A stretch of DNA of 64,000 nucleotides from assembly GCF_016735685.1 (NCBI RefSeq), contig NZ_JAERRA010000001.1:1674001-1738000 (forward strand). Reading direction: 5' to 3'. Below are positions 1-13,929 of this stretch, piece by piece. The translations under genes were made by a program, and so were the position numbers. The stretch's first letter is position 1. Every line of letters starts with the position of its first letter. The stretch comes from Piscinibacter lacus (GTDB lineage: Bacteria > Pseudomonadota > Gammaproteobacteria > Burkholderiales > Burkholderiaceae_C). Under the pieces are notes generated by a model. The model was given only the letters and a program-made list of their open reading frames with translations, made no database searches and was not told the DNA's origin.

Positions 1-1
1 C

Positions 2-388
2 GCGGCGGCCGGTACGACTCCGGCGGCGCCGGCAGCGCAGGCGGCACTCAACGCGGCCTGGCAGGCCGTTGTCGAGCAGGCGTTGGAAGCGCTTGCGCCG
101 GGGCTCAAGCAACTGGCCCAGTCCGGCGCATCGCTGCCCGAAGTGGGCCTGGAGCTGGTAGACGCCAAGGGGCGCGTCTCGGCGGATTGCGAGCTGGCAT
201 GGGTGCAGGAGAAGGTCGTCGTCCTGCGCTCCGACCAGGCCGACCTCGTCGAGCTGTGGGGCGCGGAGAACTGGAAGGTCGTGCTACTGGACGAGGCCAT
301 GAACCTTGTCGTGGGCGCACCGTGGTCTGTGGCCGCTGCTGCGAGCCTCGGTCTGGAACTCAATGTGAATGAAGGAGGGGCAGCGTGA
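2..388 (+). CDS. C-terminal end of a protein cut by the window edge (possible helicase/nuclease tail)
   Basis: The frame is open from base 2 without a stop, so this is the tail (about 128 residues) of a longer protein that begins outside the window; an internal TTG at 83 is unlikely to be the true start. An Ala/Pro-rich linker is followed by a compact alpha/beta segment containing the phrases VGLELVD, CELAWVQEKVVVL and ENWKVV. The ELAW...KVVVL...W.V pattern recalls the small PD-(D/E)XK-like tails found on large DEAD/DUF1998 helicases of defence islands, but that is a memory-based inference. The stop TGA (386-388) overlaps the GTG start of the next gene, so the two are translationally coupled. 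Function unproven. Confidence 0.5.
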   Translation, partial: AAAGTTPAAPAAQAALNAAWQAVVEQALEALAPGLKQLAQSGASLPEVGLELVDAKGRVSADCELAWVQEKVVVLRSDQADLVELWGAENWKVVLLDEAMNLVVGAPWSVAAAASLGLELNVNEGGAA

Positions 389-2490
389 GCCTCAAACCCA
401 AAGTGGCTTTGTCGCAGGACTTCCTGCTGCAACTCTCGAAGCTCCCATCCAGCGTTCACTCCAAGGTGATGAAGTGGGCCATCCAGTTCCAGTCGGACCC
501 GACCAGCCCCGGCATCAACTACGAGTACATCAACGGTGCCCGTGACCCGAACCTGAAGTCGGTGCGCCTCGACCGCGACTGGCGCGGCATCGTGTTCAAG
601 CCCAACAGCGGGGACGTCTACGTGCTGCTGTACGTGGACCATCACGACGATGCCTACCGTTGGGCCGAGAACCGCAAGCTGGCCATCAACCCGGTGACGG
701 GAGCGATGCAGATGGTCATCATCGAAAGCGTCGCTGCAGTCGAGGCAGCTCCCGCACAACCAACACCGGCGGCAAAGGCGGTCCAAGCGCAGACGGCTGA
801 GGCGCAATTGCCGCTGTTTGGCGGACTTGAGGACCGCGAATTGCTGAGCCTGGGCGTGCCAGAGGAGATGTTGGCCGAGGTGCGGCACCTTACGTCAGAA
901 CCTGAATTGGACGCGCTGCAGGGCCGCCTGCCGGTGGAAGGCTACGAAGGGCTGTTCCTTGTCGCAGCGGGCGACACCGTCAGTCAGGTGCTGAATGCGC
1001 GCGAGACCCGGGTGGACCGTAAGGTCGACACGTCCGACTTCGCGGCGGCCCTGGCGACCCCGGAATCACAGTCACGCTTTGTCATCGTCGACGACGACGA
1101 GGCCATGCTGGCCATCATGAACGCGCCGCTGGCCCAGTGGCGCGTGTTTCTGCACCCGACCCAGCACAAGCTGGCCTCCGGCGACCGCAGTGGCCCGGTG
1201 CGGGTGCTGGGCGGTGCCGGCACAGGCAAGACGGTCCTTGCCATGCACCGTGCGCGATGGCTGGCCGACAACCGCACGCTGGATGGCAAGAAGGTGCTGT
1301 TCACGACCTTCACCAAGAACCTGGCGAGCGACATCGAGCAGAACCTGCGCACGCTGTGCGGCAGCGCCACCCTCGCCAAGCTGGAGGTGCGCAACCTGGA
1401 CGCCTGGGTGCACGGCTTCATGCGCAGCCGCAAGCTGGAGCACCGCATCGTCTACGACCGCAAGCAGGACGCCGCCCTGCAGGCCTGGCAGGCCGCCATG
1501 GCGGTGCGCGACACCACGCTGGACCTGCCGGACAACTTCTATGAGTTGGAGCTTGAGCAGGTCGTGTTGGCCCAGGGCATCACGACACGCGACCAGTATC
1601 GAACGGCGCGCCGCACTGGCCGTGAGAGCGTGCTGAGCCGCACCAAGCGCGATGCCGTGTGGCCGGTATTCGAGGAGTACCGCGGCCAGCTTAGCTCACG
1701 AAAGCTCAAGGAGGTCGACGACGCCTATCGAGAGATTGCTGAACTGCTGCTTGCCGAGGACAGCCATGCCTCGGCGTACAGCGCCATCGTCATCGACGAG
1801 ACGCAAGACCTGGGACCGCAGGCATTGAAGCTGCTTCGCGCCATGATTCCCGCAGGCGCCAACGACCTGTTCTTCGTCGGCGATGGTCACCAACGCATCT
1901 ACAGCCGGCACCGCGCCGCGATGAGCAAGTGCGGCATCGACATCCGGGGACGAGCCCGCAAGCTTTACCTGAACTACCGGACAACCGACGAAATTCGCCG
2001 GCAGGCAGTGGCCCTGCTCGAGGGTTGCGAGGTTGACGACCTCGACGATGGCCACGACGAGACGCGGCGCTACAAATCGCTGTCGCATGGCCCGGCACCG
2101 AGTGTTGTCACAGCTGACGGCCTTGAGGCCGCCGCGGTTCAGGTCGTCGCCTTCATCAAGGCGTTTCGGGCAGCAAAAGGCGATGCCGACGCACCGTCAG
2201 TGTGCGTCATCGCTTCAAGCGAGAAGAACCGCGAGGCATTGGCCAAGCAGGTCCAGAGTGCCGGCCTCACGTGCCTGACCATCACGGCGCAGGCCAATCA
2301 CTCGGACAGCCGCAACGTGGTGCACTTTGCGACCATGCATAGGGCTAAAGGGTTGGAATTCGATGCGGTCGTCGTTGTCGCCCCGGAGTCGTACTTCGGA
2401 ACGCCTGACCAGACCAGTAGCCAGCGAAAGTTGCTGTACGTGGCTTTGACGCGAGCCAAGCGAAGCGCAGCATTGATTCGGTTGAACTGA
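385..2490 (+). CDS. RelE-like domain fused to UvrD/Rep-type DNA helicase
   Basis: A 701-residue superfamily 1A helicase that should unwind DNA with ATP. GTG start at 385, with an AGGAGGGG ribosome site just upstream and overlap with the previous stop. Residues 1-105 resemble the RelE/ParE toxin fold (basic, with VRLDRDWRGIV and LLYVDHHDDAYRWA); residues about 110-255 are a linker and small domain; the helicase fills the rest. Visible motifs are Walker A GGAGTGKT (276-283, K282), Walker B IDETQD (D471, E472), NYRTT near 530, the motif V region FATMHRAKGLEFD near 650, and motif VI YVALTRAKR near the C-terminus. Related RelE-UvrD fusions occur in defence islands. Whether the N-terminal part cuts RNA, acts as a sensor or only binds is unknown. 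Helicase call firm; toxin-like domain fairly likely. Confidence 0.85.
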   Translation: MSLKPKVALSQDFLLQLSKLPSSVHSKVMKWAIQFQSDPTSPGINYEYINGARDPNLKSVRLDRDWRGIVFKPNSGDVYVLLYVDHHDDAYRWAENRKLAINPVTGAMQMVIIESVAAVEAAPAQPTPAAKAVQAQTAEAQLPLFGGLEDRELLSLGVPEEMLAEVRHLTSEPELDALQGRLPVEGYEGLFLVAAGDTVSQVLNARETRVDRKVDTSDFAAALATPESQSRFVIVDDDEAMLAIMNAPLAQWRVFLHPTQHKLASGDRSGPVRVLGGAGTGKTVLAMHRARWLADNRTLDGKKVLFTTFTKNLASDIEQNLRTLCGSATLAKLEVRNLDAWVHGFMRSRKLEHRIVYDRKQDAALQAWQAAMAVRDTTLDLPDNFYELELEQVVLAQGITTRDQYRTARRTGRESVLSRTKRDAVWPVFEEYRGQLSSRKLKEVDDAYREIAELLLAEDSHASAYSAIVIDETQDLGPQALKLLRAMIPAGANDLFFVGDGHQRIYSRHRAAMSKCGIDIRGRARKLYLNYRTTDEIRRQAVALLEGCEVDDLDDGHDETRRYKSLSHGPAPSVVTADGLEAAAVQVVAFIKAFRAAKGDADAPSVCVIASSEKNREALAKQVQSAGLTCLTITAQANHSDSRNVVHFATMHRAKGLEFDAVVVVAPESYFGTPDQTSSQRKLLYVALTRAKRSAALIRLN

Positions 2491-2858
2491 TTGGTTGAGT
2501 CAGAAGCGCTGGCGTCGTGCCGCAACAATGGGCACGCGTTGTGATGGCGTTCAGACGAAGGGACACGACGCCTGTCCGAGCTGAATGGTCAACTCTTGCA
2601 TCGGTGCCGTCGAGGTGGCGGACATGTCGTGGTCCAGGGCTGCCGCGAAGTGGTCTCCTGTAGTTCTAGCTACCTAAGGGGGCTGCTGCCGCCAGGGCAC
2701 TAGCGCCGACACAAGGGGCAAGCAGCAGGCGCAGCAGATTGCGCTGAAGAACCAGGATGAGGTGAGGCAATTCCTGGCCGCCGTAGGTGCGGCGTAGGCC
2801 AACAACGAGTCTAGTCGCGGGCGTGCCGCGCGGTGGCGACTGAAGGGGGAGCAAAGGC
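2491..2858 (+). other. 368-bp gap with a short protein-like remnant
   Basis: No full gene is visible between the helicase and the nuclease gene. A frame from 2678 to the TAG at 2795-2797 encodes about 39 residues, ending in a plausible amphipathic helix (KQQAQQIALKNQDEVRQFL), with no start codon or ribosome site. It could be the tail of a deleted gene. The last 20 bases carry the GGGGGAG ribosome site of the next gene. The gap breaks what would otherwise be a tight operon. Confidence 0.3.
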
Positions 2859-4151
2859 GTGTTGAAGTTCATCCATGCGGCGGACATCCATCTGGACAGC
2901 CCGCTCAACGGCCTAGCTGCCTACCCGGACGCCCCGGCCGCGCAATTGCGCAGTGCCACGCGCGATGCGCTGACGGCCCTGGTCGACAAGGCCCTGGAAG
3001 AGGAGGTCGACTTCCTCGTCATCGCCGGCGACCTCTATGACGGCACCTGGCGGGACTACAACACCGGCATCTTCTTCTGCAAGGAGATGGGGCGCCTCAG
3101 GCGCGCGGGCATCCCGGCCTACGTGCTGTTCGGCAATCACGACGCCGAAAGCGAGATGACGCGCAAGTTGGCGCTGCCGGACAACGTCAAGACCTTCGGC
3201 GCCAACATGCCGCAGACCTTCGACGTGCCCGAGTTGGGCGTGGCCTTGCACGGGCACAGCTTCAAGCACAAGGAGACCACTGACAACCTGGCGGTGCACT
3301 ATCCCGCGCCCGTGGCCGGACGCTTCAACATCGGGGTGCTGCACACCGCGCTGGAAGGCAACGCCGCCCATGCGACCTATGCCCCGTGCCGCATCGATGA
3401 GCTGCATGCGCGCGGCTATCAGTACTGGGCGCTGGGCCATGTGCACGAGTTTGCGCAGTGGACGGGCGCCACGACCATCGTGTTTCCCGGCAACCTGCAG
3501 GGCCGCAATGTGCGTGAGTGCGGCCGGCGAGGCGCCGTGCTGGTGACCGTCGACGACGAAGGCCATCCGGAGGTCGAACGCATCTTCATCGACATCCTGC
3601 GCTGGGAGCACCTGGAGGTGGATGCCAGCGACTGCCGCTCGATGGCCGAGGTGTCGCTGCACATCGGCCGGGCCTTCGAAACCGTGCTGGCCACCGACCC
3701 CCACGTGCCGCGCGCCGTGCGCGTGACGGTCACGGGAAAGACCGACGCCCATGGCCAGCTGTTCGGCCTCGAGCAGCAACTGCGCAGCCAGGCATTGGCC
3801 CACATTGCCAGCCTGGGCAATGAGCGCCTGTGGCTGGAGAAGGTCTGCCTTCGAACGTCGCCACACCTGGACACCAGCGCTATCCACCAGCGCATGGACG
3901 CGTTCTCGGACCTGCAAGCCATCGTCGGCGCGGCCATCACCGACCCGGATTTCAACCAGAGCCTGCAGACCGAGCTGATGTCCTTCATCAACAAGGTGCC
4001 GGCCGAGGTGCAGGCGCACCTGCCGGTGCTCGAGCAGGTTCGTCAGGGCGACCTTGCGAGCCTGATGGATGAGGTGGCGCCTGGCCTGCTGGCGCACTTG
4101 GCGCATCAGGCAAATCACGCACACCAGGCGAATCAGGGGCAGGGGGAGTAA
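2859..4151 (+). CDS. SbcD/YhaO-like metallophosphoesterase exonuclease
   Basis: A 430-residue calcineurin-like phosphoesterase of the SbcD/Mre11 family, expected to be the Mn-dependent nuclease partner of the SbcC-like ATPase encoded 3 bases downstream. The metal-binding motifs are present in order: AADIH (D9, H11), GDLYDG (D58), GNHD (N93, H94), H162 in GVLHT, and GHVH (H194, H196). The C-terminal 200 residues form the capping/partner-binding part. GTG start at 2859, with GGGGGAG upstream; TTG at 2862 is an alternative. The opening resembles the YhaO subgroup rather than housekeeping SbcD. Family knowledge: such pairs process DNA ends and hairpins. In this setting a role in attacking foreign DNA is inferred. 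Confidence 0.88.
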   Translation: MLKFIHAADIHLDSPLNGLAAYPDAPAAQLRSATRDALTALVDKALEEEVDFLVIAGDLYDGTWRDYNTGIFFCKEMGRLRRAGIPAYVLFGNHDAESEMTRKLALPDNVKTFGANMPQTFDVPELGVALHGHSFKHKETTDNLAVHYPAPVAGRFNIGVLHTALEGNAAHATYAPCRIDELHARGYQYWALGHVHEFAQWTGATTIVFPGNLQGRNVRECGRRGAVLVTVDDEGHPEVERIFIDILRWEHLEVDASDCRSMAEVSLHIGRAFETVLATDPHVPRAVRVTVTGKTDAHGQLFGLEQQLRSQALAHIASLGNERLWLEKVCLRTSPHLDTSAIHQRMDAFSDLQAIVGAAITDPDFNQSLQTELMSFINKVPAEVQAHLPVLEQVRQGDLASLMDEVAPGLLAHLAHQANHAHQANQGQGE

Positions 4152-4154
4152 GCG

Positions 4155-7100
4155 ATGCGCCTGCGACGACTCCAGCTCCTGCGCTACGGCAAGTTCACCG
4201 ACACCGAGGTCGACCTGCCGCGCGCGGAACACGACTTCCACTTCATCGTCGGCCCCAACGAGGCCGGCAAGTCCACGCTGCGCGGCGCCATTGGCGACCT
4301 GCTCTTTGGGCTGCCGCTTCGCTCGGGGCCCATGGCGTTCCTGCATCCGCAACCGGACCTGCGTCTGGGGGCGACAGTCGAGCACGGGCAGCAGGCGTTG
4401 GACTTCTTCCGCATCAAGGCCAACAAGGCAACCTTGCGCGACGCCGCAGATGCCCCACTGGCCGACGACGCGTTGTCGCCGTTCATGGACGCGGCCGACC
4501 GCGACTTCTTCGAGCAGATGTTCGGGCTCGACCATGGCCAGTTGGTCAAGGGGGGCGAGAGCATCCTGGATGCGTCCGAGGAAGTCAGCCAGGTGCTGTT
4601 CCAGTCCGCCGCGGGCATCGACAGCCTGGGCAAGGTGCGCGACGCACTGACCGCCGAGGCCGACAAACTCTGGGCGCCGCGGGCGGCGGCCTCTCGCACG
4701 TATTACGCCGCCAGCAGCCGCTGGGAGGATGCCAGCCGCAACGTCAAGCAGCTGGCCGTCAGAACCAAGGTCTGGACCGAGGCGCGCGCCGCGCTAACGG
4801 ATGTCGAGTCCCGCATCGAGGCCGCCAACGCGCGGCGCACAGACCTGCAGGCCGTTCGCGGCCGGCTGGAGCGGATTCGTCGACTGGCGCCTAGCGTTCA
4901 CGCGCTCAACGAGACCACGGCCGCGCTGGCGCAACTCGGCGATGTGTTGGAGCTGCCCGCCGATGCCGGCAAGCAGTTGAGCGAGGGCATGGCGGCGCTG
5001 TCACGCGCGGAGACGGTGGCCGAGCAGCGTGCCAGCGATGTGACGCGATTGGCGGCCCAGTGCGAGGGCCTGGTCTTTGACGGCGGATTGCTGGCGCACA
5101 AGGAAGGCATCGAAGTACTGCAGGCGTTCTCTCAACGCGTGCAGGACCACTACGACGACCTCGATGTGCAGCAGCGGGCCCACGACCAGCTCCTGGCGTT
5201 GGCCCAGGCGGATGCCGCTGAGCTGGGATGGCCCGCCGACGAGACGGCCTTGCGCGCCACGCTGCCGCACCCGCTGGTGGTTCGCGAGGTGCAGCGGCTG
5301 GTGACGGCGCACGGCGAGTGCGTGCAGTCGCTGCGCAGCGCGCAGCAGGCGGTCAAGGACAAACGCGCCGAGAGGGCCGACGCGGAGGCAGAGCTCCAGC
5401 GGCTTGCACCGGACGAAGTGTCGCCCGCGCTGCGCGCAGCGCTGTCAGCCGCGCAGGCCTCCCGGAATACGGCCGCGACGCAATCTCGTCTTGACCTGGG
5501 GGTGGCCGCTGCCGAGCGCGCACTGGACGCCGCCTTGGCGGCTCTGGGTCCGCGTGCCGGCGATGTCGCCTCGTTGCAGCGGATGGCAGCGCCGGCGGCT
5601 GCACGCCTGTCCGGCCTGGTGGCCGAGCGGCAGCGATTGGTGTCGGCGCGCGATGCCGCCGCCGAGCGAGAGGCCGAAGCGAAGGCTGCGCTCGACACCG
5701 CGCAATTGGCTGTGGGGCAGTTTGAGGCGGCGGGGCATGTCGTGACCGGGACAGAGGTCCGTGACGCGCGTGTGGACCGCGACAAGGCCTGGTCGTCCAT
5801 CAGGGATGGCGCCGTGGCGCTGGCCCTCGGCGCGCCAGCCCTTGACGCCGCCATGGCCCTGGCAGATGAACTGGTCGACACCCAGCTGGGCTCGGTCAAC
5901 GAGGCTGCGCGGCTTCAAAGCCTGCGTCAGCAGGCGGAACGTCTGGGGCTGGCGCTGGCACAAAGCCAGTCGTCCTTGGCACGCAAGGCGCAGGAGCTCG
6001 GGCAGTTCGACCAGCAGTGGGCCGATGAGGTGGACGCACTGGGGCTGGCAGGCCTGGCCCCGGGCGCGGCACAAGATTGGTTCGCCAAGCGGGAGACAGC
6101 CCTGTCCGCCGCCTCATCGCTGGACGACAAGCGCGCCGAACGCGACCAGGAGAAGCGGGCTTCTGACGCTGTCGGCAGTGCCTTGAGGACGGCCTTGGCG
6201 TCGGCAGGCGTGAGCCTGGCCGATGGCGCGTCGCTGTTGGCCTTGGTGGAGCAGGCGGAAGCGCATGTCGCCAGGATGGATGCAGCCGTCACGCGCCGGG
6301 AGCTTCTGGCGCAGCGGCTTCAGGCCGCCGCCAGCGTGGTGCGGGACCTGGAGGCCGCGGCTGCAGACGCTGAAGCAGCGCACACGACATGGCAGACATC
6401 CTGGGCCACCGCGCTGGCGGCGGCAGGCCTGACGGCCTACGTGAAGTCTGTCGACGATGCCGAGCAGGCCCAGCTGTTGGTGGAGCGGGTGCGAGCCAAC
6501 CTGACGCAATCTGCCGCCACCAAGCGGGACCGCATCGACACCATGCGCGCGGACCTGGCCAGGTTCGAGGCCATGGCGCAGGCGCTGGTGACGCGACTTG
6601 GCCAGGGCGAGCTGGCCAGCGCGACGGCGCGGGACGTGGTGCGGGCGCTGGTTCCGTCACTGCGCGAGGCCGAAGCCGCCCAGCAACGCCGCGCGGCGGC
6701 ACAGGACGCGTTGCAGGCGGCACGTGAGAACCTGCTTCAGGCACAGCAAGAAGTGCAACGCGTGCATGCGAGCGTCGGGCCGCTGCTGGCCGCTGCCGGT
6801 GTCGAGACATTGGCGGCGGCGATACCGCTGGTCGAGTGCTCCGACCGACGCCGTCAACTCTTGGCCGAGGCGCACAACACACGGACCAACCTGGCCAAGG
6901 ACGCCGAAGGTTTGACGCTGGATGCCGTGCTGGCGGAGGTCCAAAGCTGCGACCTGGCTAAGTTGCCGGTGGACCTGGCGGGCGCCAACGAATCACTGGA
7001 GACCCTGCAGGCCGAGCATGTCCGGTTGGCGGAAGAGCGCCTCGCCGCGCAGCAGGCACTGGATGCCATCGACGGGCGCACCGACGCGGCATCCGCGGAA

Positions 7101-7625
7101 TCGCAGCGGCAAGAGGCCTTGGCCGACATGGTGGAGGCGTCGGAGCGCTACCTGAAGGTCGCCACAGCCGTGCGGCTGCTGGGATGGGCCATCGACCGTT
7201 ACCGGGACGAGAAGCAAGGCCCGATGCTCGCGCGTGCTGGCAGCATCTTCAGGCAACTGACCCTCGGCCGGTACACCAAGCTGTTCGTCGACTACGACAA
7301 GACGCCGGTGAGCCTGTCAGCGCATCATGCCGATGGGCGGCAGGTCGAGGTGTCCGGGTTGAGCGAAGGCACCCGCGACCAGCTCTACCTCGCCCTCCGG
7401 TTGGCGGCACTTGAGTTGCACCTGCAGAAGGCCAAACCGCTGCCGTTCATCGCCGATGACCTGTTCATCAACTTCGACGACGAGCGGTCCACCGCGGGGC
7501 TGGAGGCCTTGCGCGAGCTGTCCACGCGTACCCAGGTGCTTTTCCTGAGCCATCACGACCACCTCTTGCCGCGGGTGAAGTCGGTCTTCGGCGATGGTGT
7601 CAATGTCGTGAAGCTGCAGCGATGA
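4155..7625 (+). CDS. SbcC/YhaN-like SMC-type ATPase
   Basis: An 1156-residue ABC/SMC-type ATPase with the split nucleotide-binding fold of SbcC/Rad50. The Walker A GPNEAGKS is at 33-40 (K39); the middle 800 residues are Ala/Glu/Gln/Arg-rich with coiled-coil character; the C-terminal lobe has the signature SGLSEGTRDQLY (1067-1078), Walker B FIADD (D1101, D1102) and an H-loop LSHHDH near 1131. The SEGTRDQLY form and ending are typical of YhaN-like proteins. No zinc-hook CxxC was noticed at the coiled-coil tip, also typical of YhaN rather than SbcC. It starts 3 bases after the nuclease stop, so the pair is surely co-expressed and probably forms one complex. No further gene is fused or broken here. 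Confidence 0.88.
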   Translation: MRLRRLQLLRYGKFTDTEVDLPRAEHDFHFIVGPNEAGKSTLRGAIGDLLFGLPLRSGPMAFLHPQPDLRLGATVEHGQQALDFFRIKANKATLRDAADAPLADDALSPFMDAADRDFFEQMFGLDHGQLVKGGESILDASEEVSQVLFQSAAGIDSLGKVRDALTAEADKLWAPRAAASRTYYAASSRWEDASRNVKQLAVRTKVWTEARAALTDVESRIEAANARRTDLQAVRGRLERIRRLAPSVHALNETTAALAQLGDVLELPADAGKQLSEGMAALSRAETVAEQRASDVTRLAAQCEGLVFDGGLLAHKEGIEVLQAFSQRVQDHYDDLDVQQRAHDQLLALAQADAAELGWPADETALRATLPHPLVVREVQRLVTAHGECVQSLRSAQQAVKDKRAERADAEAELQRLAPDEVSPALRAALSAAQASRNTAATQSRLDLGVAAAERALDAALAALGPRAGDVASLQRMAAPAAARLSGLVAERQRLVSARDAAAEREAEAKAALDTAQLAVGQFEAAGHVVTGTEVRDARVDRDKAWSSIRDGAVALALGAPALDAAMALADELVDTQLGSVNEAARLQSLRQQAERLGLALAQSQSSLARKAQELGQFDQQWADEVDALGLAGLAPGAAQDWFAKRETALSAASSLDDKRAERDQEKRASDAVGSALRTALASAGVSLADGASLLALVEQAEAHVARMDAAVTRRELLAQRLQAAASVVRDLEAAAADAEAAHTTWQTSWATALAAAGLTAYVKSVDDAEQAQLLVERVRANLTQSAATKRDRIDTMRADLARFEAMAQALVTRLGQGELASATARDVVRALVPSLREAEAAQQRRAAAQDALQAARENLLQAQQEVQRVHASVGPLLAAAGVETLAAAIPLVECSDRRRQLLAEAHNTRTNLAKDAEGLTLDAVLAEVQSCDLAKLPVDLAGANESLETLQAEHVRLAEERLAAQQALDAIDGRTDAASAESQRQEALADMVEASERYLKVATAVRLLGWAIDRYRDEKQGPMLARAGSIFRQLTLGRYTKLFVDYDKTPVSLSAHHADGRQVEVSGLSEGTRDQLYLALRLAALELHLQKAKPLPFIADDLFINFDDERSTAGLEALRELSTRTQVLFLSHHDHLLPRVKSVFGDGVNVVKLQR

Positions 7626-7784
7626 CCACTGCGCGGCTCGGCAAGGGCGTGTGGGTCCTGCGGTCGGTCGTGGCTTGGGAGACGCGTGTTCCTGACCTGG
7701 CTGATGCCGGCTAGCTGTGATGGGCCGCTGGCCGACAAGTTCCTGGCGTGCCGCGTCAGTCAGCCCTCAAGCTGGCTTCACGAT

Positions 7785-7873
7785 TGCCGATATCGGCAGT
7801 TCACCGCGGCTGCGCGCAGCTGAGGTGACGGCATGAGGGTGATGCTTCCTGCTGCTGGACCTGAGCTCAGGTC
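7785..7873. promoter_or_regulatory. Cluster of three perfect palindromes upstream of 7913 gene
   Basis: The 287-bp gap after the ATPase gene holds three exact palindromes: TGCCGATATCGGCA (7785-7798), GCTGCGCGCAGC (7809-7820) and GACCTGAGCTCAGGTC (7858-7873). The last ends 39 bases before the ATG at 7913. They may be operators for a dimeric repressor. No T-run follows, so a terminator is unlikely. The gap contains no coding sequence I can support. Confidence 0.35.
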
Positions 7874-7912
7874 GTCCCGTCGCTTCCGTACACCTCAGAA
7901 AGAAGACCCGCC

Positions 7913-8350
7913 ATGATGTTCCTGTTCAACGGCATCCGCGCCGAAGTGGAGCCTGTTCCCAAGAAGAAGGGCTGGTACCAGCTCACTGGAAAGCACATCG
8001 AACGTTGGACGATGGACGTCAGCGACACCTTGGGCGACCTGCGCGGCTCAGGCATCAAGGTCGACTTCCAGGCGAAAGTCATGGGAATCCATGACCGGGA
8101 GCCCGAAATCGCACTGCACGACCCCCGGTTCAACGAGGAGAACAACCCGGAGCACGGCGCCACCTTCGGCGTCTATACCGCGGCCGGTCGCACATACATG
8201 CTGATGGCCGTCAATCAAGCCGAGTACGTCATCTTCCGCTTCTTGTGTCCTCACGAGGCCGGCGACGACGGAGAATTCGACCCCATCAGCGAATACCGCA
8301 TTGATGTGCCGGCCAGCAAGGCGAAGCGTCCCAAGAAGGTCGCAGCCTGA
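7913..8350 (+). CDS. Conserved-looking hypothetical protein, 145 aa
   Basis: I do not recognise the family. The ATG at 7913 (ATGATG) gives a soluble, charged protein with no signal peptide or membrane segment. It has a basic N-terminal stretch (PVPKKKGW), a middle beta-rich part and a Lys-rich tail (KAKRPKKVAA). Codon use looks normal for the element, so it is probably a real gene. It lies 287 bp after the SbcC-like gene and 76 bp before the HNH-like gene, all on the same strand, so it may belong to either unit. It could be an accessory or nucleic-acid-binding protein; function unknown. Confidence 0.6.
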   Translation: MMFLFNGIRAEVEPVPKKKGWYQLTGKHIERWTMDVSDTLGDLRGSGIKVDFQAKVMGIHDREPEIALHDPRFNEENNPEHGATFGVYTAAGRTYMLMAVNQAEYVIFRFLCPHEAGDDGEFDPISEYRIDVPASKAKRPKKVAA

Positions 8351-8426
8351 CCGGGCGGCGTGCCGCACTGCGAGCGCCGCGGCGGAAACCGCGCCGCGGG
8401 AAAATACGTCGACCGCAGAACCAGTC

Positions 8427-9362
8427 ATGAGCGAGCTGTCTCGGCACTACCAACTTGATGCCCTGGCCTCCGAATGCACGGCCATCGGACGTGAGTCGGC
8501 CGCGGCCGGGCTGCGCCTGGACCGCAAGCTCCCGGAGACCTATCGGGCTGCCTATGAGGCCTACGATGGTCCCAAGAAGCGGCTCGGATACTACGAAGGC
8601 AAGTGGCTCAGCCTTCGCCTCAGCGCCGTACGGCGCGGCATGATTGTCGACGCGACGGTCACGCCCGCGTTGCTAGAACGCATGACCGACGGGCGATGCC
8701 CAGTCACGCTGGAGCCGTTCAGGATGGGTGGCGGCCCATCGCCGCGAAACCCCTCCGTCGACCGGCTCGTCAACGAAGTCAGCTACCGTGCCGGGAACTT
8801 GTGCATGCTGTCCCAGCGGGCAAACCGTGCCAAAGCCGAGCTTTCCTTTGAGGAGGTGGCCCAAATCGCCCAAGCCGGCGACGCGTATGGCGAGCTCGCA
8901 TCCATCGAGTGGATGCGATTGGCCTCGTTGATGTACGGCGCCTGGGCGCGGGCCTACAAGCTGTCCGACCCTTACTTGCTGCCGCTGGCCGCCATCCCCG
9001 GCGCCGGAATGTTCATGAGCACATCGCAGGTGGTCCAGTTACTGCTGACCCGCCACTACGGCCCGGCCGGTTCATCCCCATCTGCCACAGGCCGCTGGAC
9101 GGAGATGACGCGGGACGCCGGCTGCGATGTCGCAAAGTTCACGACGCTGAGCACCCGACTCGCGGCCGCCCTGGCCAAGGAACCCAACGCCGGGAATGCC
9201 TGGCTCCATGGCGACGTGTTCGACGCATTCGTCGCCTGGTACCAATGCTGCCGACACGTGGTCGCCCCCTCCGTGGAGTTACTGTTGGAGAGGCGGCAGC
9301 TCAGCGCCGGCGACCCCGTTGCAGACTTGGCGTGGCCGACGACGTCGCGCTACAAGCACTGA
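8427..9362 (+). CDS. Putative HNH-like nuclease-family protein, 311 aa
   Basis: The ATG at 8427 is preferred because the longer frame from 8301 overlaps the previous gene and its extra residues look non-coding. Around residues 90-130 there is a pattern resembling a compact HNH/beta-beta-alpha nuclease: CPVTLEPF, then NPSVDRL, Y-RAGN, and R-N-AK. That layout (Cys pair region, DR, GN, N..K) matches atypical phage HNH proteins, although only one clear Cys is present and the canonical HNH triad is not complete, so activity is uncertain. The C-terminal half (about 170 residues) is alpha-helical and unrecognised. No signal peptide. It converges on the replication gene, with a terminator for the latter between them. 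Confidence 0.5.
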   Translation: MSELSRHYQLDALASECTAIGRESAAAGLRLDRKLPETYRAAYEAYDGPKKRLGYYEGKWLSLRLSAVRRGMIVDATVTPALLERMTDGRCPVTLEPFRMGGGPSPRNPSVDRLVNEVSYRAGNLCMLSQRANRAKAELSFEEVAQIAQAGDAYGELASIEWMRLASLMYGAWARAYKLSDPYLLPLAAIPGAGMFMSTSQVVQLLLTRHYGPAGSSPSATGRWTEMTRDAGCDVAKFTTLSTRLAAALAKEPNAGNAWLHGDVFDAFVAWYQCCRHVVAPSVELLLERRQLSAGDPVADLAWPTTSRYKH

Positions 9363-9415
9363 CCGCGTCTGTGCCGGCGACGGGGTAACGCAGGTAACCC
9401 GGGCAACGCGGATGC

Positions 9416-9453
9416 AAAAAAAAGAAGAGGGCGAACCCTTTCAGGTCCGCCCC
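9416..9453 (-). terminator. Rho-independent terminator of the replication ATPase gene
   Basis: Read on the minus strand, GGGCGGAC and GTTCGCCC form an 8-bp stem with one G-U pair around a CTGAAAGG loop, followed by TCTTCTTTTTTTT. It lies 15 bases beyond the stop of the 9469-11163 gene. Confidence 0.75.
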
Positions 9454-9468
9454 CCCTCAGCTGTCAGC

Positions 9469-11163
9469 TCATGCTGCCAGCAGCATGTCGTTCACATCGA
9501 CGCTCGGGAGCAGGTGCTCCGGGATGTCGATGACCGTGACCTTCGCGGCGCCAAGGCCAGCGCCAATGCGTTGGGTGCTCTCCTCACCACCCGGCAGCCG
9601 GCGGAGAACCACCGACCACCCACCCGCCGCCCATTTGGTCCCAGCAAACAGCTTGCGCAGTTCCTGGTGCATGGGCGAGTTCACCACGTAGAGCGACCAC
9701 CTGCCTTTCGCGAACGCCACGCGCAAACCCAGTTGGGCCATGCGCATCACGACTTCAGGCTGTTCGGTCGGGTCCTTGCAGACCGTCTCGATGGCCTGCG
9801 CAATCGACAGTTGACGGGTTACCAGCGCAGCGCCGTCCACCACCTTGAATGGCAGAACGCGGCTGGTCAACGCTTCCAGGCATTGGAGCTCGTCGCTGAC
9901 CTGATGGACCGCGATTCGCTCCTCGATTCCCAGCATGCTCACCAGGAACTTCGCGTCCTCATCCGTTGCCGGTGTGTCGGACACAAAAGCCCAGTAGCTC
10001 GCCAGCAGGGTGCCGACGGTGTCGGCCATGCGGCCGTCACCCCCCGAGGCCAGGATGCGTTGCCGCACCGCCGTCTCGGAATCCTGGAACACATTCCAAC
10101 GACTGAGATAGAGCCGTGCCAGCTTCGGCCCGATTTCCCGGGCCTCGGCTGCGGTCAGCCGTTCGCCCTTGGGCGTGCCCTTGGCTTCGAGAATGACCCA
10201 GCGGGTGAGGTCCGCTGGCTCCATCTTGCCCGGACTGATGCCCGCCGCGATGAACGGCGAGTAGAACCGGTAGCTCTTGGACTTGCCGGTCACCGTGCCT
10301 CGGACGATGCCTTCATCACCTTCCTGCAGGCTGTAGGACATGCGGGCCACGTCGAAGGTGTCCTTGCATGCCATGCGGCCGGGGTCGGCCTCGAACTCGT
10401 CGTTGACGACGACTTTCGAGGTGCCTGCCAGGCTTTGATAGTAGGCCGCCATGGTTTGCGGCCCCGTGCAACCGAACGCCAGCGGCCCCAGCAACCAGCG
10501 CACGTACTCCAGCACCGTGGACTTGCCACAGGCTGCCGGGCCCGTCATTAGCACGTGAGGCCGACGGCGCAAGGCCGTCGACACCAGGCTCATGCCGAAG
10601 AAGCCCAGCACGATTTCCCCCGCCATGGAATGAATCCACTGCGGGGAGTTGAAGGCGGCCAAGACCTTGTTGACATCATCTGCGGTGGCCTCCGGGGTCG
10701 ACAGGTCAAAGCCGACATCACCGCCGACCGGATAGACCCGGTCCTCGTGGATGCCGTGCTCCAGCACCGTGCCGTCAGCGCGCCACAGCTGACGACCATT
10801 GACCACCAGTTGCCCGTCATTCATCTTCCAGACGCCGACCCGCCGCTCGGCAGTTTCCGAGTACGGGCCGACCGCCTGACAGGCCGACAGGATGTCCGTG
10901 GCGAGGCGCTTGTGGTTGAACACAAACACCTCTTTCTTGGCGTCGAACTCGGTGTAGTACTGCTCGCACCAGTTCGCGCCGAACTGCGCCTTGAGGTTCA
11001 TCTCCTTGAGGTCCGAAGCCCCCAGCGAGGTCACCCGCATGTTCAGCAGCGAGAAGGCGGCAACCTTGTTGCCAAGCATGCCCAGCGGCACGTAGCCCCC
11101 GGAGGTGCTGCCGCTTTGCTGGGTCATGGGAGTGCCGGTGGTGCTCAGAATGGTCTTGTTCAT
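9469..11163 (-). CDS. Replication-type ATPase/helicase of a mobile element (D5/SF3-like)
   Basis: A 564-residue P-loop ATPase. The first 180 residues look like the non-catalytic N-terminal part of primase-helicase proteins. The ATPase core has Walker A GPAACGKST (208-216), Walker B VVVNDEFEAD (D255, E256), and the later segment RFYSPFIAAGISPG followed by DLTRWVILEA, which carries the arginine expected in SF3/D5 or DUF927-type helicases. ATG at 11163 has an AAGGA ribosome site upstream. Together with the AlpA-like regulator and integrase further along the strand, it most likely serves replication or maintenance of the excised element. No primase DxD motif was seen, so primase activity cannot be claimed. 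Confidence 0.65.
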   Translation of the reverse strand: MNKTILSTTGTPMTQQSGSTSGGYVPLGMLGNKVAAFSLLNMRVTSLGASDLKEMNLKAQFGANWCEQYYTEFDAKKEVFVFNHKRLATDILSACQAVGPYSETAERRVGVWKMNDGQLVVNGRQLWRADGTVLEHGIHEDRVYPVGGDVGFDLSTPEATADDVNKVLAAFNSPQWIHSMAGEIVLGFFGMSLVSTALRRRPHVLMTGPAACGKSTVLEYVRWLLGPLAFGCTGPQTMAAYYQSLAGTSKVVVNDEFEADPGRMACKDTFDVARMSYSLQEGDEGIVRGTVTGKSKSYRFYSPFIAAGISPGKMEPADLTRWVILEAKGTPKGERLTAAEAREIGPKLARLYLSRWNVFQDSETAVRQRILASGGDGRMADTVGTLLASYWAFVSDTPATDEDAKFLVSMLGIEERIAVHQVSDELQCLEALTSRVLPFKVVDGAALVTRQLSIAQAIETVCKDPTEQPEVVMRMAQLGLRVAFAKGRWSLYVVNSPMHQELRKLFAGTKWAAGGWSVVLRRLPGGEESTQRIGAGLGAAKVTVIDIPEHLLPSVDVNDMLLAA

Positions 11164-11525
11164 TTCAATGTCCTTTTTCGAGACCCGCGTCCGTTGGACG
11201 GGGCTGAGTTAATGGGGATGGACACCCCTTGCGGGGCGGACCCTCCACGGGTCGGCCGCCTTGCGACGGCACGAAGCACTAACGGGACGCACCCGACCCG
11301 CCTGTTGCCAGGCCGGTCGTTGGCACTCCGACGAGTTCGACTCGTTGGAATGTTTGAAGGTCAGGTTGTGAAAGAACGGCAGCGGCCATCCCGGCGACGG
11401 GACGACCACTGCCTGTTGTCGGCACGAACACTGCCAGCTTTAGCGAAATCTTCGGGCGCCGGGCCGCCCACCGGAAGGTGCACGACCGGCAGGCTGGTCG
11501 CCGGCACCGGACTGGCTGAGGCGAC
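11164..11525. other. 362-bp intergenic region, leader of the replication gene
   Basis: No convincing gene. Small open frames on both strands lack ribosome sites and look like chance. A short dyad, CGAGT-TCG-ACTCG, lies near 11331-11343. The region probably holds the promoter of the replication ATPase gene (minus strand), but no clear -35/-10 pair could be picked. Confidence 0.3.
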
Positions 11526-11909
11526 TCAGGCCCGACCGGCCTCCAGCTCTTGCTTGGAGAAGAACGACCTCGAGGTCAGGTGGCTCGGCCGCGGCTTGGC
11601 CCGGCTCTTCCGAGGGCCTTCCTGAGCCGTGTCGGCCTTGGGTTTGGGGTCCAGGGCCGGGGTGGGGGCGGGCTGAGCGGCGGCGGTCGAGCCGGCGTCC
11701 GCCTGGGTCGAGGCCAGCCATTGCTGCTGCTGGGCGCGTTGGCGCTGCAGCCAATCGTGGACCACCGACTGGAACCACAGCGACTCCTTGCCGAACCTGA
11801 CGGACGGCGGGAAGTCCCCGGCGCGCACGCGCCGCTCCAGGGTGCGTTCGCAGCAACGCATCAGGTCGGCGACGTCGGTCTTGGTCATCAGGGGGTCGTT
11901 GAAGCTCAC
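11526..11909 (-). CDS. AlpA-like helix-turn-helix regulator/excisionase
   Basis: A 127-residue small DNA-binding protein. The N-terminal half matches the AlpA/MerR-like winged helix seen in excisionases and phage-type regulators: MTKTDVADLMRCCERTLER, then VRAGDFPPSVRFGKESLWF and a helix that closes the fold (VVHDWLQRQRAQ). The rest is a Gln/Ala/Pro-rich, basic tail. Start GTG at 11909; an in-frame ATG at 11888, right at the domain border, is equally possible. It sits between the replication ATPase and the integrase on the same strand, the usual place for a factor that controls excision or integrase expression. Confidence 0.75.
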   Translation of the reverse strand: MSFNDPLMTKTDVADLMRCCERTLERRVRAGDFPPSVRFGKESLWFQSVVHDWLQRQRAQQQQWLASTQADAGSTAAAQPAPTPALDPKPKADTAQEGPRKSRAKPRPSHLTSRSFFSKQELEAGRA

Positions 11910-12016
11910 GGCTTGAATCGGCGAGGTGGCGATTCAACGTGTAGCCCGAAGGCTTATATTTCTCGGCAGCCAAGCTCAGGCAAGAGACAGGCCGTGGCCC
12001 GCATCGACCGAGAAGG

Positions 12017-12050
12017 CTCGAGCCCTGGCGGGTCAGGTCCAGGGCTCGAG
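12017..12050. repeat. Perfect 12-bp inverted repeat after the integrase gene
   Basis: CTCGAGCCCTGG (12017-12028) and its exact complement CCAGGGCTCGAG (12039-12050) are separated by 10 bases. It lies 80 bases beyond the integrase stop. No T-run follows on either side, so it is either a Rho-type stabilising hairpin or a protein-binding site. Confidence 0.5.
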
Positions 12051-12129
12051 GAGATGCGGTGGCGTCAGCTGGACGGGTGGCCCCCTGACCACCCGCGTCG
12101 GCTCGGTGGGCCGAGCAGCCGCCGCAGCA

Positions 12130-13485
12130 TCAGGCGCGTCGTTCCAGGGCGTCGTCGGCGTCCGTGGCGGCGCTGGCCACCTTCGATGCCGACCCCTGGC
12201 TCCCCACGCGCTTGGCCACGAGTCTTTCCCCGTCCTTGACGAGATGGAACACGTTAGCGCCCGCAGCGGGCTTGCGCGCGCGGGCATGCTTTTGCTTGCC
12301 GTGCGGGTGCACGGTGGCCGGCATCGGCGTCAGCTCGCGCAGCTTCTCGTCGAGCACGTTCAGCGCCTTGACGATGTCGGAGTTGGCCAGATTCACGTAG
12401 ACCTCCGCCATGCGGGTCGTCGTGTGCAGCAGCAGTTCCTTCAACGCGTGCGCGCCGATGCCGGCCTTGGCATAGGCGGTGGCGCCCACGTGACGGAGGT
12501 CGGCGAATCGGAGCTGGGGCAGCCCGGCTTTCTGGCGGACACCGTCCCACGCCATGTCGATGGCGTTCTCGGTCATGGTGAAGACGTTGTCCGAGGTACC
12601 GCGCGGCAGGGATTGCAGGATGGCCACGGCGCGCGGCGGCAGCTGCGCATCCATCCACTTGCCCTTGGCCCAGACCCGGGCCCGGCAGGTTTCCAGGTCG
12701 GTCTGGCTCCAGCGCAGTGACAGCAGCGAGTGCAGCCGCAGCGTGCTGTGAATCGCCATGTCCACCAGCGGCCAGAACTGCGGGTTGTCGCACTGCGAGA
12801 GCGCCTCGACGATGCGATTCATCTGCGCGTCGGTGACGACGATGAAGCGCTTGTTCGACTTGCCCAGCTTGATGCCCACGCAGGGGTTCACGAAGCCTGT
12901 CCAGCGCCACTCCCGGATGGCGCTGTTGAAGGCGGTCTTGAGCAGCGCGACTTCCTTCTGGATGGTGCTGTCGCCCCACCCCTCGGTGGTGCCCGTGGTG
13001 ACGAGTCCGCGGATGTCTTCGGTGCCGACCTTCGACACTGGCTTGTTGGCCAGCTTGCGGATGAGCTCGTAGGTCTTGGCACGCTTGGCCATGCGCGCGT
13101 CCATGTGTCTGCGAAACGCCTTGGGCACGGACTTGGCGGCCGGCACCGTGACCAGACTGCGGTTGCCGTTGTCCTCGATGACGACCGCCAGGCGCGGCAG
13201 TCCGACCGCTGTCACGTAGTGGTTGATGCGGTCGATTTCGGACTTGTAGCCGTCCTTGGCAATCGAGTAGCGCGCGGCGTACTCACCCAGGAACCGACCG
13301 AGGGTCATGCGCGAGGGCCCGCCGAACAGCGGGCCTTGCTCGGCTTCATCGAGCTTCTTCTGCTCCTTGAGCCACGCCACGACCTCGTCTTCGGTCGGGA
13401 AGGTCTCGCGGCGCACGCTGCCGTCGGCGAACTTGTATTCGCCCTTCCAGCCCTTGCGGCCGGCGATTTGGAACGGGCGCCTCAC
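12130..13485 (-). CDS. int: Tyrosine integrase of the element
   Basis: A 451-residue phage-type site-specific recombinase. It has an N-terminal arm-binding region, a core-binding domain (about 140-200) and a catalytic domain with R250 (STLRLHSLLSLRW), R331 in ADLRH, H354 in LLLHTTTR and the nucleophile Y363 in AEVYV. The first histidine of the usual HxxR box is replaced by alanine (A328), a variant seen in some active integrases. The last 60 residues form a basic extension. The GTG start at 13485 has GAGGTGA upstream. The gene lies about 330 bp from the 3' end of tRNA-Asn, pointing away from it, as expected for an element integrated at that tRNA. Confidence 0.9.
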   Translation of the reverse strand: MRRPFQIAGRKGWKGEYKFADGSVRRETFPTEDEVVAWLKEQKKLDEAEQGPLFGGPSRMTLGRFLGEYAARYSIAKDGYKSEIDRINHYVTAVGLPRLAVVIEDNGNRSLVTVPAAKSVPKAFRRHMDARMAKRAKTYELIRKLANKPVSKVGTEDIRGLVTTGTTEGWGDSTIQKEVALLKTAFNSAIREWRWTGFVNPCVGIKLGKSNKRFIVVTDAQMNRIVEALSQCDNPQFWPLVDMAIHSTLRLHSLLSLRWSQTDLETCRARVWAKGKWMDAQLPPRAVAILQSLPRGTSDNVFTMTENAIDMAWDGVRQKAGLPQLRFADLRHVGATAYAKAGIGAHALKELLLHTTTRMAEVYVNLANSDIVKALNVLDEKLRELTPMPATVHPHGKQKHARARKPAAGANVFHLVKDGERLVAKRVGSQGSASKVASAATDADDALERRA

Positions 13486-13710
13486 AGCTCACCTCGCGCG
13501 AGGTGGTGGTGGGCTTGGGGATGGGCCGGCTGTGCTGCCGACGCGATGAGTTGATGGAAAGGGAACACGACGAGCTCCAAATGGAAGGCTCGCGTATCGC
13601 CACCAGTTTTATCCGGCCAGCATGGTTGCCGCGACGTGGGCCGGCTTCAGCGTGACCGTGCGCGACATGGCGCGACACGGTGCGGCTTGGCACGACCCCG
13701 TGCGGGTCCC

Positions 13711-13734
13711 GTTTTACTGACAGTTTTACTGACA
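13711..13734 (+). repeat. Two tandem copies of a 12-bp motif between int and tRNA-Asn
   Basis: GTTTTACTGACA occurs twice back to back (13711-13722 and 13723-13734), between the integrase start and the tRNA. Tandem AT-rich repeats here are typical of integrase arm-binding sites or iterons; this role is inferred. Confidence 0.5.
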
Positions 13735-13762
13735 CCTGGGCTTTTTGGACCCTGGAACAACA

Positions 13763-13801
13763 AAGGCCTCAGCGACTTGCATCGCTAAGGCCTTGTTTTT
13801 T
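13763..13801 (-). terminator. Terminator of the tRNA-Asn transcript
   Basis: AAGGCCTCAGCGA (13763-13775) pairs with TCGCTAAGGCCTT (13782-13794) with one mismatch and a 6-base loop. T-rich sequence follows in both directions, so it could act both ways. It lies just 3' of tRNA-Asn, close to where the element boundary should be. Confidence 0.7.
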
Positions 13802-13813
13802 CACGCTTTTCGG

Positions 13814-13889
13814 TGGCTCCCCGACCTGGGCTCGAACCAGGGACCTACGGATTAACAGTCCGGCGCTCTACCGACTGAGCTATCGGGGA
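13814..13889 (-). tRNA. tRNA-Asn (anticodon GTT)
   Basis: A complete 76-nt cloverleaf on the minus strand, starting TCCCCGATAGCTCAG and ending GGGGAGCCA with the CCA encoded. The anticodon loop CTGTTAATC gives GTT. A TATAGT promoter element lies upstream and a hairpin terminator downstream. Its 3' end faces the integrase and is the likely attachment site of the element. Confidence 0.97.
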
Positions 13890-13899
13890 ACAGCCTCAC

Positions 13900-13929
13900 A
13901 CTATAGCAGGCTCTCGGAGCGGTTCACAA
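13900..13929 (-). promoter_or_regulatory. Sigma-70-type promoter of tRNA-Asn
   Basis: On the minus strand TTGTGA (13929-13924) and TATAGT (13905-13900) are separated by 18 bases, with the tRNA starting 10 bases later. The -35 element overlaps the stop of the receptor gene. Confidence 0.6.

Follow-up and report, generated by a model that had tools for sequence, protein, structure and literature searches.

ARMADA type II is a defence system of four genes, armA to armD. According to the accessible part of the preprint describing it (PMC12458937, Bell et al. 2025), it protects Escherichia coli experimentally, all four arm genes are required and protection is direct, not abortive. The Druantia protein DruE is described, in the available portion of its report (PMC13192584), as a helicase-nuclease engaging 3' single-stranded intermediates. 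As far as the accessible text of the respective papers goes, BREX has auxiliary effectors within or beside its operon (PMC12839542), and type I restriction with PrrC or RloC carries extra effectors together with the defence operon (PMC2610378). Here we analyzed a stretch of 64,000 nucleotides from Piscinibacter lacus (contig NZ_JAERRA010000001.1, positions 1,674,001 to 1,738,000), referred to as the window, together with the sequence to its left and related loci from other genomes. The locus at the left edge of the window is very probably an ARMADA type II operon, armA-armB-armC-armD, which resides on a 48.7-kb tRNA-Asn element, carries four defence-type genes between armB and armC, and is followed by an independent YhaO/YhaN pair. 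Comparison with relatives reveals that this one internal junction of ARMADA II holds different, sometimes complete, other defence systems in different bacteria.

Inspection of the sequence left of the window disclosed armA (SNF2), armB (PglX-like methyltransferase), four genes inserted between armB and armC, and the rest of armC. This resolves as ARMADA type II a gene combination for which the initial annotation, made from the window, could find no named system. That annotation had reported four co-directional open reading frames (ORFs), all of which are present on the plus strand: an open tail at 2-388, 385-2490 (701 amino acids, aa), 2859-4151 (430 aa) and 4155-7625 (1156 aa). Its 'truncated helicase-like protein' is cut by the window edge only; the protein is intact (2140 aa) and has DEAD, Helicase_C and MZB/DUF1998 domains. 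Among its family labels, those of UvrD, SbcD-like nuclease and YhaN-like ATPase are supported by Pfam, while RelE was confirmed by no profile. The co-directional cluster spans roughly -22.4 to 7.6 kb and comprises ten genes, far more than had been stated. Thus, the annotated genes are real, but the boundary drawn around the system was wrong. The features are listed below; position 1 is the first letter of the window, negative positions lie to its left, and the base before position 1 is 0.

-22392 to -19441 (L006:608-3559), plus strand: armA, SNF2/RapA-like, 983 aa
-19438 to -14273 (L006:3562-8727), plus strand: armB, PglX/DrmMI-like methyltransferase, 1721 aa
-14167 to -13163, plus strand: slot cargo 1, NOV_C/DUF3883 protein, 334 aa, PF13020 3.5e-11
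-13115 to -10956, plus strand: slot cargo 2, KAP NTPase, 719 aa, PF07693 3.1e-42
-10818 to -7681, plus strand: slot cargo 3, DrmD-like SNF2 protein, 1045 aa, PADLOC DrmD 863 bits, NCBIfam DrmD 434 bits (cut-off 610)
-7684 to -6053, plus strand: slot cargo 4, 543 aa, no Pfam match, actin/Hsp70-like ATPase judging from motifs recognized by eye
-6034 to 388 (L003:11966-18388), plus strand: armC, YprA/DruE-like DEAD helicase with Helicase_C and MZB/DUF1998, 2140 aa
385 to 2490, plus strand: armD, UvrD helicase, 701 aa, UvrD-helicase 5.7e-23 (Pfam), 4-bp overlap with armC
2859 to 4151, plus strand: yhaO/sbcD-like calcineurin-type nuclease, 430 aa, PF00149 (Metallophos) 6.1e-14, SbcD/Mre11 structures matched by sequence
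4155 to 7625, plus strand: yhaN/sbcC-like ATPase, 1156 aa, PF13514 (AAA_27, YhaN type) 5.9e-70
12130 to 13485, minus strand: tyrosine integrase, PF00589 2.9e-11
13814 to 13858: right direct repeat, at the 3' end of tRNA-Asn, 45/45 identical to the left copy (-34859 to -34815)

The four core genes encode a BrxHII/SNF2 helicase, a PglX-like methyltransferase, a YprA helicase and a putative RelE-UvrD helicase in this order on one strand, with the insert between the second and the third. Compared with the proteins of a copy on an E. coli plasmid, identity is 50.3% for ArmA (936 residues aligned), 52.2% for ArmB, 38.3% for ArmC and 43.7% for ArmD. Each of the eight residues mutated in the preprint, as given in its accessible part (PMC12458937), is conserved: ArmA K136 and D236, ArmB G605 and N971, ArmC K110 and D234 (the K and D of Walker A and B), and ArmD K266 and D454. 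The E. coli reference in this alignment was the ARMADA locus on plasmid NZ_CP026578.2, in which the numbering fits. PADLOC matched the DrmD, DrmMI and DruE models. A further feature in common with ARMADA type II is residence in an element at a tRNA gene. In agreement with the earlier claim of an integrase-bearing element, an integrase gene lies beside tRNA-Asn (13814-13889, minus strand); together with the perfect 45-bp direct repeat, whose right copy forms the end of this tRNA, it delimits an integrated element of about 48.7 kb that contains the whole ARMADA cluster, the inserted genes and the SbcD/YhaN pair. An Rfam scan of window positions 1-16000 matched the tRNA alone. The locus differs from two E. 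coli records in that armB and armC touch in the latter, whereas here they are separated by 8.2 kb with four genes, and an SbcCD-like pair follows armD.

Some observations sit less comfortably with this assignment. ArmC is only 38% identical to the E. coli protein. The RelE assignment of ArmD residues 1-110 originates in the preprint (accessible part of PMC12458937); searches of the ArmD N-terminus against Pfam, PDB profiles and, with hhalign, two slot toxins gave no RelE match. In the structural model of ArmD the order of strands and helices appears RelE-like by eye, a fold search covering mainly residues 234-701 lent no support to RelE, and a separate model of the N-terminus was poor (predicted local distance difference test score, pLDDT, 54.9). 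The predicted Vsr-type nuclease at the C-terminus of ArmC corresponds to a PD-(D/E)xK-like stretch recognized by eye only. As a separate observation, ArmC residues about 2029-2113 (~85 residues, window 2-388) match the C-terminal part of the PADLOC model of ZorE2, the Zorya II nuclease (E-value = 2e-9 with the ArmC tail alone, 1.9e-7 with whole ArmC), which might represent a domain common to two systems co-resident in E. coli islands.

To compare loci, relatives were collected by ArmD similarity, which yields a non-random sample with many metagenome-assembled genomes (MAGs). Across the extended loci the order SNF2, methyltransferase, DruE-like, UvrD is fixed. Junction distances were determined ORF-exact for 34 loci, two E. 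coli rows among them being near relatives of each other; armB|armC and armC|armD were measured in all 34 and armA|armB in 29, and only loci with armB on the contig entered the count. The armA|armB distance is -11 to 45 bp in 29/29 loci, and armC|armD is -14 to 23 bp in 34/34. By contrast, armB|armC measures -4 to 206 bp in 15 of the 34 loci and 728 to 8501 bp in the remaining 19 (Fisher p against the other junctions about 5e-7 and 1e-7, computed as if the loci were independent, which is not the case). Two loci outside the 34, G129 and G299, for which little of armC was fetched, have armB|armC distances of 5.0 and 2.2 kb, bringing the occupied slots to 21/36. Slots of L028, L033, L036, L037 and L047, seen in part with armB unreached, were left uncounted. 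The ArmA-ArmB pair, which has relatives in DISARM and BREX, and the ArmC-ArmD pair each stay tightly spaced, and the slot separates them; this may explain why only armB|armC takes insertions.

In a FastTree phylogeny built from the concatenated four core proteins of 26 loci (L043, L038, G384 (broken frames), G1287, L025, L030, L034 and the second E. coli copy were left out), the slot changed between occupied and empty at least nine times; distances of the core proteins correlate with r of 0.96-0.99 over the 26 loci and 0.72-0.90 over 16 close loci. ArmA-D of L023 and L027 are 96, 90, 92 and 94% identical, yet their slots have zero common cargo proteins at a blastp threshold of 1e-10: the slot of L023 encodes SF1 helicases of 979 and 681 aa, and that of L027 Mokosh MkoA and MkoB.

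By ORF reading, cargo lies on the operon strand in 20 of the 21 occupied slots, L031 being the exception and G468 and G691 weak cases; the strand bias was tested with 19 of 20 slots co-directional, before G691 was reread as such (p = 2e-5). Several slots contain recognizable defence genes. L042 encodes Mokosh MkoA (1722 bits) and MkoB (369 bits), to which the L027 copies are 86% and 85% identical, and L032 a complete Qat system (A, 904 bits; C, 632 bits; TatD as D; and B over its cut-off). GmrSD occurs in two ORFs in L043, AbiEii with a KAP relative in G1287, SIR2 with Ham1 in G1076, HNH, Gp49 and HipA in G129, Schlafen AlbA_2 in G299, RES with a weak Xre match in L038, Fic on the opposite strand in L031, and a Sll1717-type ATPase in G569. 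The scanned cargo genes of L020 and G1293 matched no family. For G468, G691, G772, L030 and parts of L022 and G1328, cargo was assigned by eye or through common relatives. Small cargo genes labelled PIN, VapBC, Phd/ParE and YgiT are presumably such, judging from motifs seen by eye. Modules are re-used between slots: L042 combines the Mokosh block of L027 with a three-gene block of G1293, one gene is common to G1293 and L020 and another to L020, L022 and L030, and L022 has one gene in common with L038 and two with L047. The NOV_C protein of the window's own slot recurs in that of G1328 (37% identity) and its KAP NTPase in that of G1287 (61%).

Three cargo types deserve mention on their own account. 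The DrmD-like SNF2 and actin/Hsp70-like genes (L003:7182-11947, window -10818 to -6053) form a two-gene unit elsewhere too, namely in Aminobacter pAA03, in Leptolyngbya (in reversed order) and in G231, in stretches that contain no ARMADA genes as far as examined, and are a candidate defence unit of their own. The L020 slot (L050:13416-16844) encodes a 1142-aa protein with no Pfam or PADLOC match, a candidate defence gene. Members of a 276-aa family (YFDPDW...WEFFYGGD) in the slots of L020, L022 and L030 are also candidates.

We infer a mechanism in which ArmB would methylate host DNA as a self mark, and ArmA, a RapA/SNF2 translocase, would survey or remodel phage DNA. Like DruE, ArmC may load on 3' single-stranded phage DNA intermediates, followed by cleavage by its predicted C-terminal nuclease. 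ArmD, which may include an RNase domain, would be a further motor that unwinds or processes the products. Slot genes in operon orientation would be transcribed together with ARMADA and could be exchanged without harm to the core; they and the SbcCD-like pair would provide further, independent lines of defence. We tentatively suggest that armB|armC may be an evolved payload bay, in which exchangeable secondary defences are expressed with ARMADA from a fixed internal position, so that a phage blocking or escaping ARMADA meets a second, often toxin-like response under the same transcript or ARMADA state. ARMADA II itself was already known; what is new is an internal slot with nested, sometimes complete, defence systems, and a corrected boundary, the system being ARMADA II and not a helicase-SbcCD cassette. 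If the slot is general, it could serve as a discovery tool, any gene between armB and armC being a defence candidate, as for the 1142-aa protein of L020 and the DrmD-like/actin-like pair of the window. The functional coupling of co-carried defences could be addressed by slot swaps.

Carriage of effectors in a defence operon has precedents; PrrC, for instance, is positioned inside its type I restriction operon. Like BREX and type I restriction, ARMADA II carries extra effectors in or beside the operon; it differs in stacking multi-gene, complete systems at one fixed junction, with contents differing between near-identical cores. Hence, to the extent covered by the accessible text of the earlier reports (PMC12839542, PMC2610378), what sets the ARMADA II slot apart is that its position is fixed and that whole systems are exchanged in it, the effector-in-operon arrangement itself being known. 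No description of an intra-operon slot was found in the accessible part of the ARMADA preprint (PMC12458937) or in a literature search, outside which lay most subscription journals and supplements.

It is also possible, though not probable, that the armB|armC inserts are neutral hitch-hikers, the junction tolerating island DNA that has no functional link to ARMADA. At a junction that lies in a defence island, insertions may be no more than hitch-hiking, and a number of observations speak for this and against an evolved slot. Empty slots are common (15/34), and both E. coli loci examined, which are not from the tested strains, have touching armB and armC, so ARMADA can function without cargo. 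The cargo is diverse, several of its genes have no known family, and the small lipoprotein-like ORFs of G468 do not look defence-like; moreover, defence-type cargo was tallied without a baseline from DNA outside the operon. The slots of L023 and L027 also retain some resemblance in cargo, as the 681-aa helicase in the former is distantly related to MkoA (159 bits). In the slot flanks of 22 close-clade loci no common attachment (att-like) sequence was apparent by eye, on which ground we rejected site-specific insertion; the one likeness seen was a short armC leader in L030, L034 and L044. On the other hand, hitch-hiking does not readily account for the lack of inserts at the other two junctions (0/29 and 0/34), although their genes overlap or nearly touch and they are perhaps insert-intolerant, so that this lack alone is no proof of the usefulness of the slot. 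Nor does it readily account for the strand bias or for the recurrence of whole known defence systems in the slot. Furthermore, armB and armC touch in E. coli too, yet only this junction has opened elsewhere.

An evolved payload bay and hitch-hiking both concern the slot; the remaining explanations concern the locus as a whole. According to the initial annotation, the ArmC tail, RelE-UvrD, SbcD and YhaN act as one DNA-end-degrading system. The genes are indeed co-directional, all DNA-handling and all on one element, another SbcD/YhaN pair lies directly upstream of armC in L033, and a consensus search, itself weak evidence, found no promoter or terminator between armD and sbcD. Nevertheless, such a joint system is very unlikely. 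The armC-armD order recurs in other genomes, but among 51 armD loci, 34 of which have at least 4.8 kb downstream, SbcD/YhaN follows armD in the window's own locus only and in 0/33 relatives, and therefore we regard the pair as a separate unit. In other records examined it has other neighbours, and it is separated from armD by 368 bp, compared with at most 23 bp at armC|armD. The anti-phage role proposed earlier is well supported where the helicase tail and RelE-UvrD are concerned, these being armC and armD of a system protective in E. coli (accessible part of PMC12458937), and not for a joint system with SbcD/YhaN. The combination of SNF2, methyltransferase and DUF1998 helicase with PADLOC matches to DrmD, DrmMI and DruE recalls class 1 DISARM or Druantia, yet a variant of either is highly improbable. 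DISARM class 1 likewise has an SNF2 helicase, a PglX-like methyltransferase and a YprA-type helicase with DUF1998, but as separate DrmA and DrmB genes with the PLD nuclease DrmC. Here, helicase and DUF1998 are fused in one 2140-aa protein, RelE-UvrD takes the place of DrmC, no PLD family was found in the Pfam-scanned genes (ArmA was scanned by PADLOC and NCBIfam only), and both SNF2 proteins fall below the NCBIfam DrmD cut-off of 610 bits (ArmA 352, slot SNF2 434). As regards Druantia III, DruE models are the best PADLOC models for ArmC among the matches listed (339 bits); however, among the matches listed, the neighbours of armC are not DruH but the UvrD helicase ArmD and the actin-like protein, whose one PADLOC match, PDC-M61B, is weak, and ArmA, ArmB and ArmD are present. 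Gabija was also rejected: ArmD matches GajB models, but has no GajA neighbour, and YhaN matches a GajA model with an E-value of only 0.007. Finally, relatives of YprA (MrfA), UvrD and SbcCD work in repair, and the pair at 2859-7625 is the sole SbcD/YhaN-type pair found in its genome. A plain DNA-repair locus is nonetheless the most improbable explanation, given a mobile element with direct repeats, a scattered occurrence in several classes of proteobacteria and in MAGs that bear the labels of other phyla, a methyltransferase, nested defence systems and a homologue with tested anti-phage activity.

With its calcineurin-type nuclease and long coiled-coil AAA_27 ATPase, the pair resembles the YhaO/YhaN and SbcCD nucleases, from which it differs in being island-borne; a literature search found no test of YhaO/YhaN as an anti-phage unit. 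Relatives of YhaN occur in 19 plasmid records, five neighbourhoods of which were examined, one (Polaromonas) being a fragment. The pair directly follows BREX on a Methylomonas koyamae plasmid (L072), follows helicase and ATPase genes in Methylotuvimicrobium, and in Paraburkholderia and Burkholderia lies at a distance from any evident defence operon. A further pair is found with Hachiman and AbiE genes on an Aminobacter island, and the pair of L033 is a distant one. In the BREX type 1 operon of L072 itself, genes for a PDDEXK protein and for Shedu lie between pglX and pglZ, another case of defence nested in defence.

ArmD relatives were found at 30 loci of the genome contig collection, a few of them partial. 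They come mostly from beta- and some alpha- and gammaproteobacteria, and also from MAGs labelled Gemmatimonadetes, Chthoniobacter and Saccharibacteria, for which mis-binning is possible. Within the order, 12/300 genomes, the own one included, have an ArmD relative (E-value 1e-60), and armC adjoins armD in three of these 12 (own, G129 and G299). At 1e-110, again with the own genome included, the counts are 8/369 for the class, 8/398 for the phylum and 6/299 for the family. More distant ArmD relatives (L011-L019; 34-38% identity over most of the length) have no armC in flanks of up to 1.5 kb (L018 without upstream sequence), and perhaps belong to a wider RelE-UvrD-like family outside ARMADA. In G442, armD stands without other arm genes within 40 kb. 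Two proteins encoded on the Piscinibacter element at 9469-11163 (minus strand, 564 aa) and 8301-9362 (plus strand, 353 aa) have no Pfam, PADLOC or NCBIfam match. Several otherwise complete loci have broken frames or an insertion in the core, affecting armC in L043, L038 and G1287 and armD in G384, which reflects either decay or sequencing error.

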